Below, one piece after another: positions 823 to 59,375 of a DNA stretch of 64,000 nt. The position numbers and the translations under genes are program-made. Location of the stretch: the NCBI RefSeq assembly GCF_002554795.1, contig NZ_PDEQ01000003.1, positions 248,001 to 312,000 on the forward strand, given 5' to 3'. The stretch is from Longibacter salinarum (lineage in GTDB: Bacteria; Bacteroidota; Rhodothermia; Rhodothermales; Salinibacteraceae). Every line of letters starts with the position of its first letter. Positions within the stretch are counted from its first letter, which is position 1. Below the pieces are notes generated by a model. That model saw nothing but the letters and a program-made list of their open reading frames with translations, had not been told where the DNA came from and made no database searches.

Positions 823-1358
823 ATCTGGGCTAGAGGGGAGAAGACGAAAGCGAAGCTGGACGTATCGTCGTGCGCAGACCGGGGCACGGGGGCTTAGGGT
901 ACGCCGGACGGAACAGGCACGAGGATGCACGCGCCCCGTGGATGCGGCTGCGCTGGCTAAAGAAGCGATGTCGGAATACGTGGCGGCCGATTTTTATTAT
1001 CAAAATGGTGATGCGACATGTCCCTGTCCCTGATACCGAGGGAAAATGTGAGGCGATCGCGTCTGGGATTTGGAAAGAGTTGGCTCGACATTTCAGGGGG
1101 TAAGTCATACGTTGATAACGTGTTTGGCGGATGTATCGCGACACAGTAAACCCGATCGTTTAGATCTATTCGCACGCCTGAAGGTGAGCCTTTGGCACGC
1201 ACGATGTAGAATCGGTGCACGAAATCAAAGCCCTTTTGTGTTGCGAGCAAAGCAAGGACCGACCGTTGGGAGGTCCGTACCTTCGGATGGCCGAAGGCTG
1301 TCCGCCAAACAGGTTCTGATCGATTCCATTCTGTGTTTGTCCTACCCGTCGAGGCCCC
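823..1358. other. Intergenic region without a recognisable gene
   Basis: These 536 bases separate the dehalogenase from the helicase. Short open frames exist on both strands, but none has a family motif or coherent protein-like sequence. I see no hairpin with a T-run and no RNA-gene signature. The helicase promoter is presumably in the right-hand half. Confidence 0.4.
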
Positions 1359-4300
1359 ATGCCCGATCTGTTCGACTCGCTTGAGACCGATTCTGCATCG
1401 CAGCCCGTGGAGGGAGCGTATGACGGGCAACAGGAATCTGCGTCGGAGGATGTAGGGTGGCCCGATCTGAATGACGCGCAGGAACGAGCGGTCCGTGCGT
1501 CGCTGAAACCGCAACTCGTCGTAGCCGGACCGGGGACGGGCAAGACTCGGGTGCTCGTGTGCCGCGCCGCGTACTTGCTGACGAAATATAGCGAGCAGCT
1601 ACGTCCGTCGGATCTGGCGGTCATCACGTTTACGCGGAAGGCCGCCCGGCAACTCACCTCGCGGCTGGCGGGCATCGTCGGCGCAAAGGCGCAGCACGTG
1701 CGTGCGGGGACCATCCATCGGTTCTGCGCGGAGATCTTGCAGGAGCACGGCGAGGCCGTCGGGGTGCCTGAGGATGTGGTCGTTGCCCCGGAGGCGGTGA
1801 CAGACGCGTTCTGGCAGCGCTGGTTCGAGGGGAACGAGTCGTGGGCGAAGTCGAACGATATCTCCAGCTTCCGTCAGGCCAAGCTGAGCATCAGTCGGGC
1901 CAAGCTCGGCATCGAAACCGTGACGAGCCGACTGCAGACGGCCCGCCGGGAGTACGACGAGATGCTTGCGTCGCGTGGGATGCTCGATTTCGACGACCTG
2001 CTCGTCAAGGCCCGTGACGCGGTGAACATCAATAGCGTGCGGGATGCCGTGCGCGAGACAACGAAGGCGATCCTGGTGGACGAGTTTCAGGACACCGATC
2101 CCGTACAGTTTCACGTCGTGCGCCAGCTCGCTGCGCGATCGCCTAAGGAAAAGGGAGCTCATCTCTTCTGCGTGGCGGACGATGATCAGTCGATCTACGG
2201 GTTTCGCGGCGCGCGGCAGAAGAACATCAACGATCTGATCGACCGCTTCGGGTGTTCGCGGGACTCGGGACGTCTGCACATTCTCCAGACGAACTACCGC
2301 TCGAATCGGGCGATCTACGAAGTTGCAGAATCCGTCCTGCCGCCAGAGCAGCGGCTGAAGCGGAGGGGCGAGATCGAGACGGCGAATGGCGATACGTCAC
2401 CGGTCGTCCTGTCGTCGTGGCCGGACGAGTCGCAAGAACTCGACGGCGCACTGCAGCAGGTGCGCGAGTGGTTGGATGATGACGTCTCTCCGCGAGAGAT
2501 CGCTGTTCTCGCGCCCTGGAATACCGCGGTTCAAGCTCTGGAGCGGCGGTTTCTGCGCGCAGGCATTCCCTGCGAGGCCAGCTCAACGGAGCCGATCCTG
2601 CAGACGCCCGCGGTACGTCGCCTGATGACGACCTTTGCGCTGGTCGAGCGGGTTCTTCGTTCCGGGGAGATCGCCGACGATGCATTGGCCGACGTGATGG
2701 ACGTGGTACTACCGGAGGATCTCACGACGCGGGTGCGGGATATCGCTCATCGGTCGAAGGCTGGGCTGTGGGGGATTTTCCAGCGCCTTGCAACAGACGC
2801 CGATGCGGCCGAGCGAGCCGGGCTGGGGGCCGAAAGGGGGCAGCTAGAGCGTGTCTACGCCGCGATCGGAAATATTATGCAGCATGCGCGATCCAGCGAT
2901 ACGACCATCGAGAGTCTGGCCGAGGAAGTGCTTCGTCAGTTCGGGGGGACGACGCACCTGCTCGCCGAGGCGGCGGATTCCCTGCGAGACCCTCTGCAGG
3001 CGGATGGGATGGCAGAGGCGGCGGATCGACTGCGCCGCTGGCTCGAGCGCATTCGGAACGGAAACGGGCACGGTCGGCTCCTACTTTACGAGCGAAACAC
3101 GCGGCTCGTGCAGGTTCACCGCGAGATGATTCGCCACGCGCTCGACCTGGCGAATCGTGAGGGCCGTGTGCCGAACCAGTCGCCCGCCGCGTTCGTGGTC
3201 TCAGATGAAGACCACCCGCGTCCACTAGACAAGAACGATCTCGTCTGCACCTCTGACATCGACGCTTTTCTCCGCTGGGCCGAGCGAAATGGAGCCCTGG
3301 GCGAGACGTTGCCGCAGGTGCTGGAGATCGGCGGGGTTGCGACCGGGCGCGAGCGGCTGACACTTGCCGGATTTGATGCCGACCAGGTCACCCACGTTGC
3401 CCCTGCAGCGTACCGGAGTCCCTCGCTTCGGCTGTTTTCCCTGCTACAGACGGCGGTTGCTCCGGCTGAACCCGAGCCCGCGTTTCCAGATTACGTGATG
3501 GTGGATCTGGAGACGACGAGCCTAGACGTGAAGTTGTGCCGCGTGGCGGAGATCGGCGCGATCCGCGTGAGGGACGGAAAGGAGGTGGACTCGTTCGATG
3601 TGCGGGTCGAGCTTCCCGATGACCTGACCGACGAGGAAGCGACCACGCTGCGGGACGTCTGCGGGATGGACCTGGAGGAAGACTTCGTCGATGCGCTTCC
3701 GCTGGAGGAAGCATGGTCGAGGTTCTGCGCCTTCGTAGATGGGTGCCCGATCATAGCACACAACGGCCAGCGGTTCGACTTCCGGATCCTGAAGCGATTG
3801 CATCGGGAACTCGGATCGGGAGCGGCGCCGTGGACGATGACGTCTGACACGCTTCCGATGGCCACGCGCCTCTGCCCCGATCTGCCTCGACACACTGCAG
3901 AGCACCTGCGGACTGAACTGCTGGATCAAAACGAGCCGACGGCGCATCGCGCGCTGGCCGACTGCCGGGATCAGCAGGAGATCCTCGCTGCACTTCAGGT
4001 GCGAAAGGCGACGCTTCAGCGGAAGACGGCCCTGGAGCCCATTCTGCCCGCCGCCCTGACCGGCACATTGATCGACATCACGGCGCGCGATGAGGGGGAG
4101 ACATCGCCGACATGGAGCGAGGGCGAGCGCGTTCTCCTTGAGGTCGGGTATCGCTGGGCGCTCCGGGATGCGTCGCAGATCACGGCTACGCTGCGCCGTT
4201 TGCTCCCCCGATCGCTTCCGGCGATGGTCCGTGCGACACCGGCGCTGTACGAGGCATTCGACGAAGAGCGGCTGCTGTCGGGCGATGACGACGCGCGACC

Positions 4301-49538: not shown

Positions 49539-50369
49539 AACGGGGCGGGCTGGCAGGTGAAGGGCTGACGGAGATGCGTGCGGGACGGAATCACCGAAAG
49601 TGTACAGCCGATAAGCTATGGGAGCGCGGATCGTGTATCCACAAGCGACGATGAAAACGACCTGCGAACCCAATCTTTGAGACGTAGGGTCGAGAATGGA
49701 CGTTATCACTGGAGTAGCCGTAGACACGCGGCTGATATGGACGTGCTTGCTCCGTGTCGCCGGATGCTTCAGTAAATGACGAACGCCCTCATCCGGGGAG
49801 ACAGCAAAGAGGAATCGTCTGACAGATGACTCTGGCGTGGTGGACCCTGACGTACTGGGAAAAACGGCTCATACGGACGGGGATGGGCATGTAATGGGGC
49901 GGGTGGCCTGGAACCGACCCAATTCTCATACTTTACACGTCGCGAACTGTACTGGAAGCACTTCCAGAGGTACATTTGTTTACGGTGTTAAGTCTGTCTG
50001 CTTAAGAGGAGGTCGTCACGCGGGAGTAGCGGGGATCTGCTCTAGCGTAGACCGTCTCGTGCGGCACGTCAGCGTTCGTGGTTGCAATCGGCACGTCTAC
50101 CACTGCAACCCGTACGTTACCGCAGGTTTCGGTTGCGTTCTGCGTGATGGCAGTCTCTCGAGGACGGACCGCGTTCCGTACGGTTATGGCAGGAAGAGAA
50201 AGCGATGGATGCCATCGTCTTCGAAAGAACCACGGGTTCCGCCATACAGACTGCACCGGAGTCTTCCCAACTTGCAGCACGACTGAAGAACACAATCCGT
50301 CCGCGGGGCCAGGCACGGCTTTCGTCGACGGACCGATCACTTGCTACTCAAGAGCGCACCGAACACGTT
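49539..50369. other. Long leader region upstream of the acyl-CoA dehydrogenase
   Basis: 831 bases with no convincing gene, divergent promoters expected. A palindrome and -7 element lie at 49952-49978. Several short plus-strand frames exist but look non-coding. The region downstream of 49985 could be a long 5' untranslated leader. Confidence 0.4.
49952..49978 (+). promoter_or_regulatory. 16-bp palindrome abutting a Bacteroidetes-type -7 element
   Basis: CTGGAAGCACTTCCAG at 49952-49967 is a perfect inverted repeat (7-base arms, 2-base spacer). Three bases on, TACATTTG at 49971-49978 matches the Bacteroidetes -7 consensus TAnnTTTG exactly. No clear TTTG is seen at the -33 position. This could be an operator controlling the acyl-CoA dehydrogenase, but the start codon lies nearly 400 bases further on. 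Confidence 0.5.
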
Positions 50370-52469
50370 ATGGCCAACAAAGGCTTAAGCAATATCAAGG
50401 GTGTCTCGAAAGCGGATCAGCAGATGATCCAGGACATCGAGACGATGATGGGTCCGGAGCCCGAAGACATGGGCTTCATGAAGAACGCTTTCTGGGGCCG
50501 GTTCCGTGAGGACCTCGTCTTTCCGTACCCTCGCGAGAGCAAGGACGAGCGGGAGAAGTGCGATGCCCTTCTCGAAGAACTGGAAGAGTACCTCGAGAAC
50601 GAGCACCCGGCAGTTGAAATCGACCAGGAGCAGTACATCCCGCAGGAGTCCATCGATCGACTCTTCGATCTGGGCGTCATGGGAATGATCATTCCCGAAG
50701 AGTACGGCGGGCTCGGTCTGGGTGTGACGAGCTACAACCGCGTGCTAGAAATGATCGGTAGCTACTGTGCGTCGACGGCCGTCATGGTCTCGGCCCACCA
50801 GTCGATCGGTTGCAAGGCACTCGTTATGTTTGGTGACGAGCGGCAGAAGGAAGATTACCTTCCGATGGTCGCGCGTGAGAAGCTCAGCGCCTTTTGCCTG
50901 TCGGAGCCCAATGTGGGTTCGGATGCGGCCGGTCAGGAATCCTTCTCCGTGAAGACGGAGGATGGTGATTACATCCTGAATGGCGAGAAGAAGTGGTCGA
51001 CGTCCGGCGCGTTCAGCGGTCTGATGACCGTGATGTGCAAGAACATGGTCAAGAACGAAGAGACCGGTGAGCTCGAGGAGCGTGGCGTCAACGCGCTTAT
51101 CGTTACGCCGGATATGGACGGCGTCGAGATCTTCGAGAACAACCGCGCCAAGACCGGCATCCGCGGCACGTGGCAGGCACGTTTTCGCTTCAATGACGTC
51201 CATGTGCCGAAGGAGAACCTGCTTCACAAAGAGGGGGCGGGTCTCAAGGTTGCGCTCAACTGCCTCAACTACGGTCGTTGCACGCTGAGTGCCGGCGTCA
51301 CGGGGGCAGCCAAAGCGGCCATGAACCAGGGCATCAAGTGGGCACAGACGCGCTATCAGTTTAAGCGGCCGCTTGCCGACTTCGAGCTCGTTCAGCAGAA
51401 GATCGCCCGGATGTCCGCGCTGACGTATGCGATGGACGCCATGCTCTACATGATGACGGGCATGCTCGATCGCGGCGACAAGGACATCATGGTCGAGACC
51501 GCCATCACGAAGGTGTTCTGCAGCCACTACGGCTGGGAGGTTATCGATGACGTGATGACCGTCATGGGCGGTGAAGGCTACATGGAAGAGAACGAGCTGG
51601 AGCGCTCCTGGCGCGACAATCGTATTCACGCCATCGTGGAGGGCTCGAACGAGGTCATGCAGTCATTCATCTTTGCGTACGGCGGCAAGCAGCTCGCCGA
51701 GCAGATGATCTCGATCCAGGACGCGCTAACCTGGGACACCGACGAGTCGATCGGGGACAATCTGTCGCGCATGTTCAACGCAGCGACGAACCCGACCATC
51801 ATGCAGAAGGCCATCCCCCTCGGAGCGCAGCTCTTCCTCGGGTACAAGCCGAGCGCACCCGACATCCGGAGCGTCCACCCGGCCCTGCGCGAACAGGCCG
51901 AACAGCTTGCTACGCTTGTGCAGAAGCACTCGCACTACGTCAAGCTTGTCAGCAAGTGGGAGCGGGAGGACATCGTCAAGCATCAGGCGCAGCAGGCCCG
52001 CGTCGCCGACAACGCGATCTACATTTTCGCGCTGGCTACGTCGCTCTCGAAGATGGACGACCAGCTTCGCACCGGCGAGTACGGGCCGAAGTTTGAGCGC
52101 GATCGCGCCGCCTTCGAATACCTGTTCGACTGGTTCGACAACAAGATCCACCAGAACTTCGGCGAGATGCGTCGTAATGCCGACGAGAAGATGCGCGTGG
52201 CTGCAGAAGCCGCTCGCCGGTACAACGACACGCTCCCGAACAAGGAGTACTACATCCACGAAGGCTCGCCGCTCGGACGCGGGGCCGGCAAGGACGTGCC
52301 GACGGAGCACATCAAGCAGTTCCCGGGTGAAGGTCAGGATCCGCGTGCGATTGACCGTTCGCCGGGTGAGACCGCCGAGCTGGAGGTCGACGAGCTGGAG
52401 GAGAAGGCAGCCTCCGGCGATGGCGCGCCTGAAGAGCCGAAGCCGGCTGCAGAAGATGGTGTGGCATAA
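50370..52469 (+). CDS. Acyl-CoA dehydrogenase with C-terminal extension
   Basis: 699-residue FAD flavoenzyme that makes trans-2-enoyl-CoA in fatty-acid beta-oxidation. Motifs: FDLGVMGMIIPEEYGGLGLG, AFCLSEPNVGSDAAGQ (FAD/substrate loop), GIRGTWQARFRFNDVHVPK, TRYQFKRPLADFELVQQKIA, and the catalytic base E424 in HAIVEGSNEVMQ. Beyond about residue 440 comes a further helical domain with a Glu/Ala/Pro-rich tail, like VLCAD/ACAD9-type long forms. Start ATG 50370 (MANKGLSNIKG) is chosen; the longer frame to 50205 has unlikely sequence. Followed by word repeats and a terminator. Confidence 0.93.
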   Translation: MANKGLSNIKGVSKADQQMIQDIETMMGPEPEDMGFMKNAFWGRFREDLVFPYPRESKDEREKCDALLEELEEYLENEHPAVEIDQEQYIPQESIDRLFDLGVMGMIIPEEYGGLGLGVTSYNRVLEMIGSYCASTAVMVSAHQSIGCKALVMFGDERQKEDYLPMVAREKLSAFCLSEPNVGSDAAGQESFSVKTEDGDYILNGEKKWSTSGAFSGLMTVMCKNMVKNEETGELEERGVNALIVTPDMDGVEIFENNRAKTGIRGTWQARFRFNDVHVPKENLLHKEGAGLKVALNCLNYGRCTLSAGVTGAAKAAMNQGIKWAQTRYQFKRPLADFELVQQKIARMSALTYAMDAMLYMMTGMLDRGDKDIMVETAITKVFCSHYGWEVIDDVMTVMGGEGYMEENELERSWRDNRIHAIVEGSNEVMQSFIFAYGGKQLAEQMISIQDALTWDTDESIGDNLSRMFNAATNPTIMQKAIPLGAQLFLGYKPSAPDIRSVHPALREQAEQLATLVQKHSHYVKLVSKWEREDIVKHQAQQARVADNAIYIFALATSLSKMDDQLRTGEYGPKFERDRAAFEYLFDWFDNKIHQNFGEMRRNADEKMRVAAEAARRYNDTLPNKEYYIHEGSPLGRGAGKDVPTEHIKQFPGEGQDPRAIDRSPGETAELEVDELEEKAASGDGAPEEPKPAAEDGVA

Positions 52470-52597: not shown

Positions 52598-52821
52598 CCT
52601 ACGAGGGATCGCTTGGCACCTCTGCGCGAGGATATTAACGATGCGTCGGAGCGGAAAATCAGGTTTTCGGCCCGGATTCCAGATCTCTCGCTTTTTGGCT
52701 GTGTCCGGTGTGAAATGAATTTGTCGCTATACAAGACGAAGGATCGGTGGGCATTTTACAGACCGCGCGTAATTCTGTGTGCCCGACCGGTACTACCCAC
52801 GTCTTTCTTCATTTGTTAAAT

Positions 52822-55290
52822 ATGCAAATGCCTGACGATACGACGAAGAATCACAATCATCCTCCATCGGTTTCGCCGGGGGATTCCATCGCGGATCGCG
52901 TCCGTAGAAACCCAGGCGGCAGCGTCCTTCGGGATGTTCTGACGTACACGGCCCAGGCTGCGCTTCTCGGGGCAGTCGCTGGTGCCGGTGTTGCAGCCGT
53001 GCCTCAGACGGCAAACGCACAGGCGGACTTCACCGAGCGACCTGGGACGAACAACCCGCTCGATGGCGTTGACGTTGGCGACAACAGCACGCCGCAGTTT
53101 TTCGATTATGAGAGCGATGGCGACCTCGACATCGCCATCGGTCGCGCAGATGGCACCATTGCCTTCTTCGAAAATACCGGGTCCGCAACCAGTCCGAATT
53201 ATGTGGAGCAGACGGGGTCGTCGAACCCGTTTGACGGGGAAGATGTCGGAGACAATGCCGCCATCGACTTTGGCGACATTGACGGAGACGGTGACCTCGA
53301 TATTGTAGCGGGCAAGAATGCCGGCGCTCTTCTATACATCGAGAACACGGGTTCTGCTACGAGCCCCAATTATGTTTCACAGTCCGGTACGGACAACCCG
53401 TTTAACGGTATCGGGGTAGGGACGAATAGTGCTCCGAAGCTCGCTGACTTCGATGGCGACGGGGACCTGGATGTTGTTGTCGGCCGTGCCGACGGGACGC
53501 TCGCGTACGTGGAAAATACAGGGTCGGCTTCCAGCCCGAACTACGTACAGCAAACCGGAGCGTCCAACCCATTTGATGGTTTCGATGCCGGAGACGATTC
53601 CATACCGGGTCTCGCAGATATCGATGGCGACGGTGATCTCGATCTCGCGGTCGGTAAGAACGAGTCGACCGTGAGCAACTCGATCACATATTTCGAGAAT
53701 GTTGGCTCGGCATCGGACCCAGACTATCAGCAGCGCACGGCATCGGACAATCCGTTCGACGGTTTTGCAGGCACTGACAGTGCGCCAGTCTTCGGCGACG
53801 TGGACGGTGACGGAGACGTTGACGCTGCGGTTGGGGCCGCGGATGGGCAAATCCGCTACCTGGAAAACACGGGCGATGTTACCCGTTCTGAATCGTTCGT
53901 CGAGGCCGAGAATAATCCACTGTCTGGCCAGAGCTTGACCGATGGCAACAGCGCGCCTGCCGTAGCCGACCTCGATGCCGATGGCGACCTCGACATCGTA
54001 GCCGGGAAAGGCGATGGTACGCTCGTTTACTTCAAGAATACCGGGAGCGCCACGAATCCATCGTACAGTCAGGAGTTCGGCGTCCTGCCCGGCAATGACT
54101 ACGGTGAAGACTCGGCGCCACTGGTTGTCGACTTTGATGCGGATGGCGACTACGACATCGCTGTCGGTCAAGGGGATGGCAACGTTAGTTATCTCGAAAA
54201 TACCGGTTCGGTCACGTCTCCTTCGTTCACCCAGCGTACCGGATCTAGCAATCCGTTTAATAGCATCGCGCTGCTCGACAAGTCGAAGTTGACGACAGCC
54301 GACATTGACGCGGATGGCGATCTCGACATTGTTGCGGGGAAAGGAGGCACGGATTCGTCCCTGCTCTACTTCGAAAACGACGGATCCCGTACGAGCCCGA
54401 ACTACGTGGATGCCACGGACGGGAGCGCGTTCGATGGACTGACCGCGACCGATGGAGCGCCGGAGTTCGATGACGTCGACAACGACGGCGACTACGACCT
54501 AACCGTTGGTACCGGTAGCGGTGCGGTGAAGTACTTTGAGAATACCGGAACGAAGACAAATCCTTCGTTTAGCGAACGCACCGGGACGGACAATCCATTC
54601 GCCGGCGCGACGCAGAATGGGCAGACCGCACCACGGTTTGCGGATCTGGACGGCGACGGAGACCGCGACCTCGTTCTCGGTCAGGATGATGGATCGTTCG
54701 ACGTCTATCGCTACGGCGACTCAGACGTCCTTCCTGTTGAGCTGACGAACTTCGCGATTCAGCCGGATGGGAATGCGGCCATGCTGACGTGGTCGACCGC
54801 GTCCGAGAAGAATAACTCGGGCTTTGAGGTTCATCGGATGCTCGGCGGAGGCATGTTCGAGAAGCTCGGCTTCGTCGAAGGTGCAGGTACGGTCAGCACG
54901 CCTCAGACCTATCGGTTCCGTACGGACGATCTGCCGAACGGCACACACCAGTTCCGCCTGAAGCAGGTCGACGTGGACGGCTCGTCCGAATACAGTAAGA
55001 CGAAGACCGTCGAGATCACGATCGATAGCAAGTACGAGCTCACAGCGCCGTCGCCGAACCCTTCGAGTGGGGAAGCGGCCGTGAAGCTCACCGTCGAACA
55101 GGCTCAGAACGTACGCGTCGAGGTGTTTGACCTCCTTGGCCGCCGCGTCTCCGTCGTCTTCGACGGTCAGATGGGCGCCCAGAAGGAACAGCGCTTCCGC
55201 GTGGGCGATGACCTGAGCGCAGGTACGTACTTCGTGAAAGTGACGGGCGAAGGGTTCGAGAAGAGCCAGAAGTTCGTCGTGGTACGTTAA
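52822..55290 (+). CDS. T9SS-secreted protein with ten FG-GAP/VCBS-like repeats
   Basis: 822 residues. An unusual long N-terminal segment of about 45 residues, with DRVRRNPGG, precedes an Ala/Gly-rich hydrophobic run (LLGAVAGAGVAAV) and a cleavage site after TANAQ. Ten repeats of about 55 residues follow, each with a calcium-type DxDxDGDxD loop such as DIDGDGDLDIVAGK, a YFENTGSATSPNYV strand and a NPFDG turn; they form a beta-propeller or beta-helix. A short FN3-like part (VELTNFAI, LTWSTASEKNNSGFEVHRM) leads to a T9SS type A sorting domain (SPNPSSGEA, VFDLLGRRV, GTYFVKVT, KFVVVR). It is exported to the cell surface or medium, likely for adhesion or polysaccharide binding. Start ATG 52822; the ATG at 52828 is also possible. 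Confidence 0.93.
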   Translation: MQMPDDTTKNHNHPPSVSPGDSIADRVRRNPGGSVLRDVLTYTAQAALLGAVAGAGVAAVPQTANAQADFTERPGTNNPLDGVDVGDNSTPQFFDYESDGDLDIAIGRADGTIAFFENTGSATSPNYVEQTGSSNPFDGEDVGDNAAIDFGDIDGDGDLDIVAGKNAGALLYIENTGSATSPNYVSQSGTDNPFNGIGVGTNSAPKLADFDGDGDLDVVVGRADGTLAYVENTGSASSPNYVQQTGASNPFDGFDAGDDSIPGLADIDGDGDLDLAVGKNESTVSNSITYFENVGSASDPDYQQRTASDNPFDGFAGTDSAPVFGDVDGDGDVDAAVGAADGQIRYLENTGDVTRSESFVEAENNPLSGQSLTDGNSAPAVADLDADGDLDIVAGKGDGTLVYFKNTGSATNPSYSQEFGVLPGNDYGEDSAPLVVDFDADGDYDIAVGQGDGNVSYLENTGSVTSPSFTQRTGSSNPFNSIALLDKSKLTTADIDADGDLDIVAGKGGTDSSLLYFENDGSRTSPNYVDATDGSAFDGLTATDGAPEFDDVDNDGDYDLTVGTGSGAVKYFENTGTKTNPSFSERTGTDNPFAGATQNGQTAPRFADLDGDGDRDLVLGQDDGSFDVYRYGDSDVLPVELTNFAIQPDGNAAMLTWSTASEKNNSGFEVHRMLGGGMFEKLGFVEGAGTVSTPQTYRFRTDDLPNGTHQFRLKQVDVDGSSEYSKTKTVEITIDSKYELTAPSPNPSSGEAAVKLTVEQAQNVRVEVFDLLGRRVSVVFDGQMGAQKEQRFRVGDDLSAGTYFVKVTGEGFEKSQKFVVVR
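53021..54725 (+). repeat. Ten tandem protein-coding repeats (about 170 bp each)
   Basis: The ten FG-GAP-like units share strongly similar DNA, especially GACGGnGACGGnGACCTC around the calcium loop and the GAAAATACCGG / AACCCGTTTGA turns. This suggests expansion by unequal crossing-over and possible copy-number variation between strains. Confidence 0.8.
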
Positions 55291-55314
55291 CCTACAGCGC
55301 AGCATGAGGCATGG

Positions 55315-55350
55315 AGGCCGGGGCGGTTGTCGCTCCGGCCTTCTGTCGTT
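55315..55350 (+). terminator. Probable terminator after the T9SS repeat protein
   Basis: AGGCCGGGGCG pairs with CGCTCCGGCCT across a GTTGT loop, followed by TTCTGTCGTT. The T-run is interrupted, so termination may be partial. Confidence 0.65.
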
Positions 55351-55449
55351 GATAGCGATGTAAGTTGATCGTGACGTAAGCGACAGATAGCCTTAACATG
55401 TAGCGACGCGTTTTCCTCGAAGTGACTTTCTCTACTACCCCAAGATTGT

Positions 55450-57651
55450 ATGTCTTCCTTCGCGTCCTTTCCACCAACCGTTTTCCAGGGATCCGGTGAT
55501 CTTCGGGACTGGCTACGGGAAACGGGGGCCAGTCTTGCACTTGCTTTACCCCGCTACAATCGCCTGGCTGTTCTCCGATCGGGGGCGACCCCGCAAAAGC
55601 AATCGAGCGAAGCGGTCCGTGATGACGAACGTCACGATTCTGACGCTCTGGCCGTGTCGCTTCATACCATCGAGACCCCGATGAAACTTCGGTCGAATGC
55701 GGAGCGCCTCTTCGTGTCGACTCGCCACCAAATGCACGAGTTCACCAATGTGCTTAGTGGCGATGCGACGTATCAGGGGCACGATTCTGCGTACATCCTT
55801 CGTCGTTCACACACGACAGGAGCGATTGGTGCTCACGATCTCGGATTCGGCGTCGACGGGGTTCTTCGGTTCGTGACGGCCCGCTACAATGCCGTTGCTG
55901 GACTCGACGACGTACACAGTTTCCGGTTGAGGTGGCAGTTGTCCGATCTCCGCGAGGAACTGCTTGGTTCCGACGCTCGACTGACGGGCATGGCTTACGA
56001 TGCCGACGATCGGCCACGGTTTGCTGCTGTGGAAGGGATTCAGCCCAGCTCAAACGACTCAACGTCGACGACGGGAGGCATCGTGGATGTAGCGTCCGGG
56101 GACATTCTGGCGTCTCAGCTAGACGCGCCACAGCATCCTCAATGCTACGACGGGAAGCTGTTTTTCGTGACAAGAGGGGACCGCAGTCTCTGGTGGAATC
56201 CGACGGAGCCCGCAGGCGAGCCCAAGCGGATCGCAACACTGCCCGGCTATCCGGTCGACATGGACGTGCTCGACGGATGCGCGATCGTCTCTATTTCGGC
56301 GACTCCCCCCGATCGGTCACCGAAAGAGAATGGGACAGAGGCTTCTCATCACGCGCAAGGTGATGACCTCCGAAACGGACTTTGTGTCGTCGATCTGTCG
56401 ACGGGTGACGTGATTGCAGAAACGCACGTCGCAGATACGCTCGGTCCAATCTCTGGCGTGTGCGTGCTCGACGACGCGCTCCATCCGACTGTTCTCACGG
56501 CGGATGACGATGAGCTTCGCCGCACAATCACGTTTGCGACGGATCAGGGCGCGGTGTATCACCGACTCCCTGATTCCGCCTCGTCCACATCCGGGGACAA
56601 GACTGAGGCTCACGCTGCATCGGCAAACGCTGAATCGACTCCGACATCGGCTGCTCCCGCTCCGTTTTCGGGGGGCTCTATCGATCAGTTAGACCTCGAC
56701 CTCTCGGAGGCGCGCCGGCGTGACACTCGTGTTAGGGCGGGTCAGCCATATCAGCTCTTCGCCGGGCAGATGCTGGCAAAAGATGTGATTAGCCGGTTTC
56801 AAGAGCTCCTACCAGGTCGATTCGTGCGGCGGGTTAAGACAGGAGCGGTGAGCGGAGATCTTCCGCTCGTTGGAGTCGTGGCGGTCGTTGGAAAACGCCC
56901 CATCGGGATCGCCGTCGCCGCCATCCCGTCGAATGCTTCAGCCTCTACGTTGCATGCGTTGAGTGTGCTTCCGGCTCAGCGCGGTCAGGGTGTCGGAACG
57001 GCGTTGTTGCAGCGTCTTGAAGCGCTTATCCAGACGGGCGGAGCAGAGGAACTGCAGGCCGAGTACCGACAATCGAATTCCTCTCGACAGGCGCTGGAAC
57101 GCGTTCTTGAAAAATCTGGATGGGACGCGCCACGCGCGAAACGCAAGCTCTATCAGGGAGATCGGGAAAACATTCCCAAACCGTTCCTGGAAACGTTGGC
57201 AAAGCGATCCCTGCAGGCCGGTGAGCTGTTTTCATGGAGTGACTTGACGACACAGGAGAAACAGAATTTGCAGGGTCGACTACGACCGGGGGCGGAACGG
57301 TCGATTCCCGTCCCTCTCAGTCCATTTCAGCTCGATGCCACGGTCGATTACGACTGTAGCCTAGGTCTTCGGCACGAGGATCGGGTGGTGGGCTGGATGA
57401 TTACCCATCGCCTCGCACCAGAAGTTCTTCAGTACACATGCCTGTACGTCGAGCCGGACATTCGGGGGCCGGGTGTGGGGCTCTCGCTCCTTGCTGAAGC
57501 TATGCGTCGGCAGGCCGAGCGGACAGACATTCCCCGCTTCATCTGGATGATCGATGCCGAGAACACACGAATGCATCGGTTCGTGGAGGGACGCCTTGCC
57601 TCGGTGATCGATAAGCAGGATACGTTACTTCACGCCGTGACCCGTTTTTGA
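55450..57651 (+). CDS. Fusion of a TIGR03032-like propeller domain with two GNAT acetyltransferase domains
   Basis: 733 residues, no signal peptide, so probably cytosolic. Residues about 10-375 match the TIGR03032/DUF4915 pattern: STRHQMHEFTNVLSG (from 90), RRSHTTGAIGAHDLGF, FVTARYNAVAGLDDVHSF, IVDVASGDILASQLDAPQHP and LCVVDLSTGDVIAETHV; this is thought to be a beta-propeller. A Ser/Ala/Thr-rich linker (about 380-420) joins it to a GNAT fold with acetyl-CoA loop QRGQGVG (R511-G516) and then a second GNAT with RGPGVG (R672-G677). Two catalytic acetyltransferase folds on a propeller is an unusual combination; substrate unknown. A T9SS sorting domain continues in frame after its TGA stop (57649-57651). 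Confidence 0.85.
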   Translation: MSSFASFPPTVFQGSGDLRDWLRETGASLALALPRYNRLAVLRSGATPQKQSSEAVRDDERHDSDALAVSLHTIETPMKLRSNAERLFVSTRHQMHEFTNVLSGDATYQGHDSAYILRRSHTTGAIGAHDLGFGVDGVLRFVTARYNAVAGLDDVHSFRLRWQLSDLREELLGSDARLTGMAYDADDRPRFAAVEGIQPSSNDSTSTTGGIVDVASGDILASQLDAPQHPQCYDGKLFFVTRGDRSLWWNPTEPAGEPKRIATLPGYPVDMDVLDGCAIVSISATPPDRSPKENGTEASHHAQGDDLRNGLCVVDLSTGDVIAETHVADTLGPISGVCVLDDALHPTVLTADDDELRRTITFATDQGAVYHRLPDSASSTSGDKTEAHAASANAESTPTSAAPAPFSGGSIDQLDLDLSEARRRDTRVRAGQPYQLFAGQMLAKDVISRFQELLPGRFVRRVKTGAVSGDLPLVGVVAVVGKRPIGIAVAAIPSNASASTLHALSVLPAQRGQGVGTALLQRLEALIQTGGAEELQAEYRQSNSSRQALERVLEKSGWDAPRAKRKLYQGDRENIPKPFLETLAKRSLQAGELFSWSDLTTQEKQNLQGRLRPGAERSIPVPLSPFQLDATVDYDCSLGLRHEDRVVGWMITHRLAPEVLQYTCLYVEPDIRGPGVGLSLLAEAMRRQAERTDIPRFIWMIDAENTRMHRFVEGRLASVIDKQDTLLHAVTRF

Positions 57652-57936
57652 TGGTTATCTTGGTTGAGTAGGGGCGTTGTCTTCGGCCGGCCGTCGCCCA
57701 ATCCAGTGCGAAGCCAGCTGGCATTCACGCTCGGCATGGCAGAGAGCCGCCCGGTGCGGATCGTGATGTACGACCTCCTCGGCCGACCGGTCGCGATGCT
57801 GTACGACGGCACGCCGACAGCGGGGCAGGAAGAGACGCTCACGCGCTCGCTGCCGCGCCTCCCGAGCGGACGCTACTTCCTTCGTCTCGAAGGCGAGTCC
57901 GTAAACGCCGTCCAACCCGTCACTATCGTCCGGTAG
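57652..57936 (+). pseudogene. Orphan T9SS C-terminal sorting domain, in frame behind the preceding stop
   Basis: Directly after the TGA of the propeller-GNAT gene, the same frame continues (WLSWLSRGVVFGRPSPNP) into about 80 residues of a complete type A T9SS sorting domain: SPNPVRSQLAFTL, VRIVMYDLLGRPV, RYFLRLEGE, PVTIVR, then TAG. No secreted passenger is attached. It looks like the remnant of a lost T9SS gene, or it is a stop-codon-separated extension; a TTG-started small protein at 57664 is possible but would lack a signal peptide. Its sorting domain is clearly different from that of the neighbouring repeat protein. Confidence 0.65.
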
Positions 57937-57993: not shown

Positions 57994-58032
57994 AAAGGGC
58001 TGCCCCTCCACGATCGGAAGGGCAGCCTTTTT
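57994..58032. terminator. Bidirectional rho-independent terminator
   Basis: AAAGGGCTGCCC pairs with GGGCAGCCTTTTT, with T-runs on both strands. It lies between the convergent propeller-GNAT/sorting-domain unit and serS. Confidence 0.88.
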
Positions 58033-58097: not shown

Positions 58098-59375
58098 TTA
58101 TTCGATCGTGTCAAATCCGGTGTACGGCTGCAGAACCTCTGGTATCAGCACGTTGCCGTGCTCGTCCTGGTACTGCTCGAGAATGGCGGCGACAATACGG
58201 GGAAGGGCGAGCCCACTCCCGTTGAGCGTGTGGACCAACTTGGGTTTTGCTTCGGCTTCCGGGCGGTAGCGAATCGCCATCCGACGCGCCTGGAATGCCT
58301 CGAAGTTCGAGATGGACGAGACCTCCAGCCAGCGTTGCTGGCCCGCGCTCCAGACTTCCAGGTCGTACTTCTTCGCCTGTGTGAATCCCATGTCGCCGGT
58401 GCACATCAGGAGACGGCGGTACGGCAGGCCGAGATCATCGAGCAGGGCCTCGGCATTTTCGCGGAGCGATTCGAGGGCACGGTAGCTGTCGTCTGGCTCC
58501 ACGACGTGAACGAGCTCCACCTTATCGAATTGATGCAGGCGGTTCAGGCCGCGCACGTCGGCGCCGTGCGACCCGGCCTCGCGGCGAAAGCACGGTGTGT
58601 AGGCGCACAGCTTGACGGGAAGCTCATCGGCCGAAAGAATTTCGTTCCGGAAGAAGTTCGTGACCGGGACCTCGGCTGTGGGAATCGGGAAAAGCTCATC
58701 CCGCTGAATCTCGTACATCAGATCCTCCTTGTCCGGCAGCTGACCGGTACCGCGGGCGCTGTCCTCGTTGACGAAGTGCGGGGCCTGTACTTCGCGATAG
58801 CCGTTTTCCTGCGCTCGGTCAAGAAAGAAGTTGATCAGCGCACGCTGCAGACGGGCACCCTTTCCAAGGTAGAACGGGAAACCCGCTCCTGTGACTTTCG
58901 CGCCTCGCTCGAAATCGACGAGGTCGTGCTGCTCTGTAATCTCCCAGTGCGGCTTTGGATCGAAGTCAAACGTCGGCTTCTCACCAACCTCCGCAGCCAC
59001 CTCGTTGTCCTCCTCCGTGGCGCCGACCGGAACGCTTCGGTGCGGGACGTTCGGAATCTCCAGCAGAAGCCGCTGCTGCTTTTCCTTCACCTCGCGAACC
59101 GTTTCTTCCAGCTCTTTGACGCGGTCCTTGAGCCGACTCGTCTCCTCAATCTTCTCCTGCGCCTCCTCGTCCTTGCCCTCACGCTTGAGCTGGCCGATCG
59201 AGCGGGAGACCTTGTTTTGCTTCTCCTGTGTCTCCTGCATCTCCGTGATCGCCGCACGCCTCTCCTCATCCACCTCCAGTAGCTGGTCGACGATGGCCGG
59301 ATCCCCCGCGCCTTTCGCCCGGATGGCCTCCTTGATTCGCTTCGGCTCTTTTCGGATGCGTTCGATGTCGAGCAT
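58098..59375 (-). CDS. serS: Seryl-tRNA synthetase
   Basis: 425-residue class II synthetase charging tRNA-Ser. The N-terminal antiparallel coiled-coil arm (EETSRLKDRVKELEETVREVKEKQQ region) is intact, motif 2 is FRREAGSHGADVRGLNRLHQF, and motif 3 is NGSGLALPRIVAAILEQYQ. Full length. Start ATG 59375 gives MLDIERIRKEP, the typical SerRS opening. Its 3' region has word repeats, then the shared terminator. Confidence 0.97.
   Translation of the reverse strand: MLDIERIRKEPKRIKEAIRAKGAGDPAIVDQLLEVDEERRAAITEMQETQEKQNKVSRSIGQLKREGKDEEAQEKIEETSRLKDRVKELEETVREVKEKQQRLLLEIPNVPHRSVPVGATEEDNEVAAEVGEKPTFDFDPKPHWEITEQHDLVDFERGAKVTGAGFPFYLGKGARLQRALINFFLDRAQENGYREVQAPHFVNEDSARGTGQLPDKEDLMYEIQRDELFPIPTAEVPVTNFFRNEILSADELPVKLCAYTPCFRREAGSHGADVRGLNRLHQFDKVELVHVVEPDDSYRALESLRENAEALLDDLGLPYRRLLMCTGDMGFTQAKKYDLEVWSAGQQRWLEVSSISNFEAFQARRMAIRYRPEAEAKPKLVHTLNGSGLALPRIVAAILEQYQDEHGNVLIPEVLQPYTGFDTIE

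Follow-up and report, generated by a model that had tools for sequence, protein, structure and literature searches.

Positions 57676-57936 of the window (the whole stretch of 64,000 nucleotides from Longibacter salinarum that was analysed) very probably represent the 3' remnant of a gene for a T9SS-secreted beta-helix protein that formerly lay between a DUF4915-GNAT gene and serS. What is left of it is a sorting domain that follows the stop codon of the GNAT gene in the same frame. A domain continuing in frame past a stop codon suggested recoding at first sight, but comparison with one syntenic locus in a sister species shows the tail of a deleted neighbor. The arrangement is ordinary gene decay, a 3' gene remnant and not a hidden fusion protein. 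It provides a small example of the gain and truncation of T9SS substrate genes, and a warning that counts of sorting domains can take in remnants. The features of the region, in window coordinates, are as follows.

50205-52469, plus strand: acyl-CoA dehydrogenase gene at the left edge of the block, the name assigned by inspecting the translation
52747-55290, plus strand: T9SS substrate gene with FG-GAP repeats, carrying a sorting domain at about 55015-55287
55450-57651, plus strand: gene for a 733-residue protein with a DUF4915/TIGR03032-like domain and two GNAT domains, lacking a signal peptide by hydropathy
57649-57651, plus strand: TGA stop, the ordinary C-terminal end of the GNAT family as judged from homologues
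57652-57690, plus strand: proposed deletion junction zone, 39 bp as against ~2.7 kb in the sister species
57676-57936, plus strand: orphan T9SS type A sorting domain with its TAG stop, identified by TIGR04183, sister synteny and a tree
57998-58027, no strand assigned: GC-rich terminator-like hairpin, the 3' boundary common to the remnant and serS
58098-59375, minus strand: serS, convergent neighbor and synteny anchor, named from sequence and 95% identical to the sister protein

The names serS, acyl-CoA dehydrogenase and ilvE (the last used below) were given by eye from sequence, beyond the profile matches. The hairpin was scored on the minus strand and its stem is followed by a T run on the plus strand too; the sister species carries a similar G+C-rich inverted repeat at this position.

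The sorting domain and the stop codon ahead of it

The reading frame of the GNAT gene (55450-57651) continues after its TGA for 94 sense codons up to a TAG at 57934-57936. A preliminary description of this DNA had read these codons as a type A sorting domain, and profile searches of the post-TGA stretch bear this out: residues 16-88 match TIGR04183 (27.4 bits against a cut-off of 23, E 2.4e-6), and PF18962 falls just below its cut-off (26.9 bits against 27, E 6e-6). The stretch has the core sequence, ~80-residue length and terminal R-stop of the type A family, including the PNP, D-x-LGR and SGxYFxR motifs, and is 57% identical to a sorting domain of the sister species (E 3e-29). Judged by these matches, codons 57676-57933 are a real sorting domain. 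The copy differs from those of known T9SS substrates, in which an N-terminal Sec signal peptide and a passenger precede the domain, in having no passenger, signal peptide or start of its own, and is thus a domain remnant and not a substrate.

The host genome contains dozens of other sorting domains, together with a 1,783-residue frame that matches the T9SS sortase model at 180 bits (below the cut-off of 420). A search of the genome returned 54 sorting-domain matches at E <= 0.01. The orphan domain is unusual among them because the other 53 sit in open frames of at least 299 codons; it is the only match that does not tail a long open frame. The preliminary description was also right that the neighboring repeat protein, encoded by the FG-GAP gene, ends in a sorting domain of its own.

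In the protein encoded ahead of the stop, two GNAT acetyltransferase domains come after a DUF4915/TIGR03032-like domain that scores 125.7 bits in Pfam. A hydropathy scan (not SignalP) of its N terminus revealed no hydrophobic signal segment, the best mean over 11 residues being 0.9 as compared with 2.7 in the T9SS gene of the sister species. GNAT homologues in two other genera (full-length in genome G031, and consisting of the two GNAT domains only in G002) terminate in this column of the alignment, give or take one residue, and the GNAT fragment of the sister species (G001) stops with TGA at the equivalent place; in none of the three genomes does the GNAT protein extend past this point. Because homologues end there, the TGA at 57649-57651 is, on this alignment, the normal end of the protein and neither recoded, nor erroneous, nor a lesion.

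The sister-species locus and the proposed deletion

Synteny with G001, the single other genome of the genus that was compared, indicates where the domain came from. On contig C383 (locus L066), a serS that is 95% identical to that of the window over the part present lies convergent to a complete T9SS gene (1299-4073, minus strand). The open frame of this gene spans 938 codons and, from its own ATG, encodes a 924-residue protein with a clear signal peptide (MARFATTTTILAVLGALLLSFGATPAHA), a passenger of the right-handed beta-helix type and, at its end, the sorting domain that is 57% identical to the orphan one. A spacer of 187 bp separates the start side of the gene from a GNAT 3' end corresponding to residues 670-730 and 69% identical to the window protein. 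This GNAT gene (L066, 4276-4452, minus strand) is a 5'-truncated remnant between two T9SS genes, the second of which also encodes a beta-helix protein and is cut by the contig end further upstream; no other convincing pieces of the GNAT gene were found there. A tree was built from 60 sorting domains of the two genomes. In it, the orphan domain pairs with the domain of the G001 gene beside serS (support 97/97), and the domain of the upstream G001 T9SS gene joins that pair next (95/87).

The window thus keeps the 3' end of a gene whose ortholog is intact at the syntenic position in the relative, but has lost its start, signal peptide and main body. The GNAT stop is 39 bp from the PSPNP motif of the sorting domain in the window as opposed to ~2,717 bp in G001, and on this account ~2.7 kb is missing from the window. 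We propose that a deletion of this size fused the spacer sequence immediately after the GNAT stop with the front of the sorting domain. The downstream gene would have lost spacer, start codon, signal peptide and passenger in this event, and only the domain and the terminator would be left. The preliminary description had offered the loss of a passenger by a T9SS gene as one of two possibilities, and had asked for syntenic loci to be compared in relatives; the complete, independent gene at the sister locus agrees with such a loss, and in substance it is the very finding that the description had named as speaking against its own reading.

We infer that the change was a loss in the window and that it took place in a single step. 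The ancestral order of three genes is only partly reconstructed, from one sister genome in which the GNAT copy is itself truncated. No direct repeats of at least 12 bp, which might have pointed to a particular type of deletion, were found at the junction. Recombination between neighboring sorting domains, the route suggested in the preliminary description, is excluded: the GNAT gene lies intact between the two domains and would have been lost in such an event. The two domains are moreover just 31% identical, and the junction carries no direct repeat. Translocation of the passenger was also considered and rejected, as no ortholog of it was found elsewhere in the genome, where the best match (39%) lies within a complete T9SS gene.

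After the deletion, the remnant and its terminator would in effect serve the GNAT gene as a 3' untranslated region. GNAT transcripts probably run on through the remnant as far as the hairpin, and the remnant is presumably not translated. It resembles the pseudogene tails that deletions leave behind, in that the 3' end of a gene intact in the sister species persists together with a terminator-like hairpin, but differs from them in that by chance it shares the frame of the upstream gene and is still undegraded.

Alternative readings and the state of the remnant

That the TGA is read through at some rate, giving the GNAT enzyme a T9SS sorting domain, was the other possibility raised in the preliminary description. 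The frame is indeed open across the stop and the domain intact, but the stop is the end of the family in two other genera and in the sister species, which has the domain in a separate gene with its own start. The hydropathy scan found no N-terminal signal peptide, and a fusion lacking one would have no route to the T9SS via Sec. A C following TGA makes a leaky stop context; the base found here is T. The common frame is no evidence for a fusion, as one-third of deletions, whatever their end point, would give such a frame; it is not beyond chance expectation and is accidental. Recoding of this kind is therefore hardly credible. There is still less to be said for a sequencing error or recent nonsense mutation in a true fusion of GNAT and sorting domain, a reading that has in its favor the single base separating the two frames; the GNAT homologues of G001, G002 and G031 end at that place with no sorting domain fused to them, and the domain in G001 is part of a different gene. 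A nonsense mutation in particular is made very unlikely by these homologues.

A functional small open reading frame, translated separately from the TTG at 57664 (90 residues) and acting for example as a decoy for the sorting machinery, would account for the open frame and the conserved core motifs. It is very unlikely, however, given that no signal peptide, evident ribosome-binding site or promoter-like match is found ahead of the domain, that the TTG has no Shine-Dalgarno-like sequence, and that an ATG overlapping the GNAT stop is in another frame, which stops after six codons. False joining of two loci at 57652-57690 during assembly is conceivable in a draft genome of 22 contigs, but it has a negligible chance of being correct: on one side serS and the domain stand in the order of the sister species and on the other stands the GNAT end, the junction contains no repeat, and a search of the rest of the genome did not find the missing passenger. 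A little less improbable than any of these, though still a slight prospect, is that the sorting domain is still produced by low-level read-through of the TGA or by reinitiation downstream of it, giving a new fusion or orphan domain in the cell; such a product would be a starting point for a new T9SS substrate.

The deletion reading leaves the age of the remnant to be considered. The ~13 codons from the stop to the conserved P-S-P-N-P core (57652-57690) and the domain behind them contain no frameshift or further stop before the TAG. Since only ~3% of single-base changes in the stretch would create a stop, the open frame says merely that the deletion is not very old. The remnant shares 58% identity with the sister copy at a pN/pS of 0.43; this divergence is at the upper edge of, yet inside, the range of 12 other sorting-domain pairs between the two genomes (identity 54-90%, pN/pS 0.11-0.44), most of which have similar passengers too; as a test of decay, identity and pN/pS are uninformative here. 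The divergence fits a deletion after the species split with little decay since, and the sequence is compatible either with a recent deletion or with constraint on the remnant, which may be weak.

Two side observations concern other sorting domains. One in the sister species (G001, C380, 3113-3367) is broken by a single in-frame TGA, and two adjoining T9SS genes in the genome of the window (G000, C7, 172529-179005; L026 and L027) carry identical 86-residue domains, which a recent duplication or gene conversion may have produced.

Origin of the block

The neighbors of serS are different in other genera of the family, and the block of FG-GAP, GNAT and T9SS genes is absent beside it there. In one relative (locus L074), serS and the acyl-CoA dehydrogenase gene face each other across a short gap that holds a small gene, with no T9SS or GNAT gene between them. 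Because the neighbors of serS differ in this way, we suggest that this genus probably acquired the block (FG-GAP T9SS gene, DUF4915-GNAT gene and T9SS gene) and that its two species have since trimmed it in different ways, the window having lost most of the downstream T9SS gene and the sister species most of the GNAT gene.

The DUF4915-GNAT gene itself recurs beside genes of the same kind. A scan for its relatives across the genome contigs found five loci and no further member from the genus, and a literature search on TIGR03032/DUF4915 found no paper. The gene adjoins FG-GAP or beta-helix T9SS genes (window 52747-57651; L067, 3-3328; L068, 1-5931; L066) in three genomic settings, namely serS in this genus, an ilvE-like gene in G002 and a TPR/glycosyltransferase-41 gene in G031, and in G031 and G001 T9SS genes flank it on either side. 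Such recurrence suggests that the gene and T9SS repeat genes form a conserved pair, in which the GNAT protein is perhaps a modifying acetyltransferase for secreted repeat proteins. A further DUF4915-like match (28%, residues 70-274) at L035 (G048, C530) adjoins a gene for a TPR protein, a TPR neighbor as in G031.
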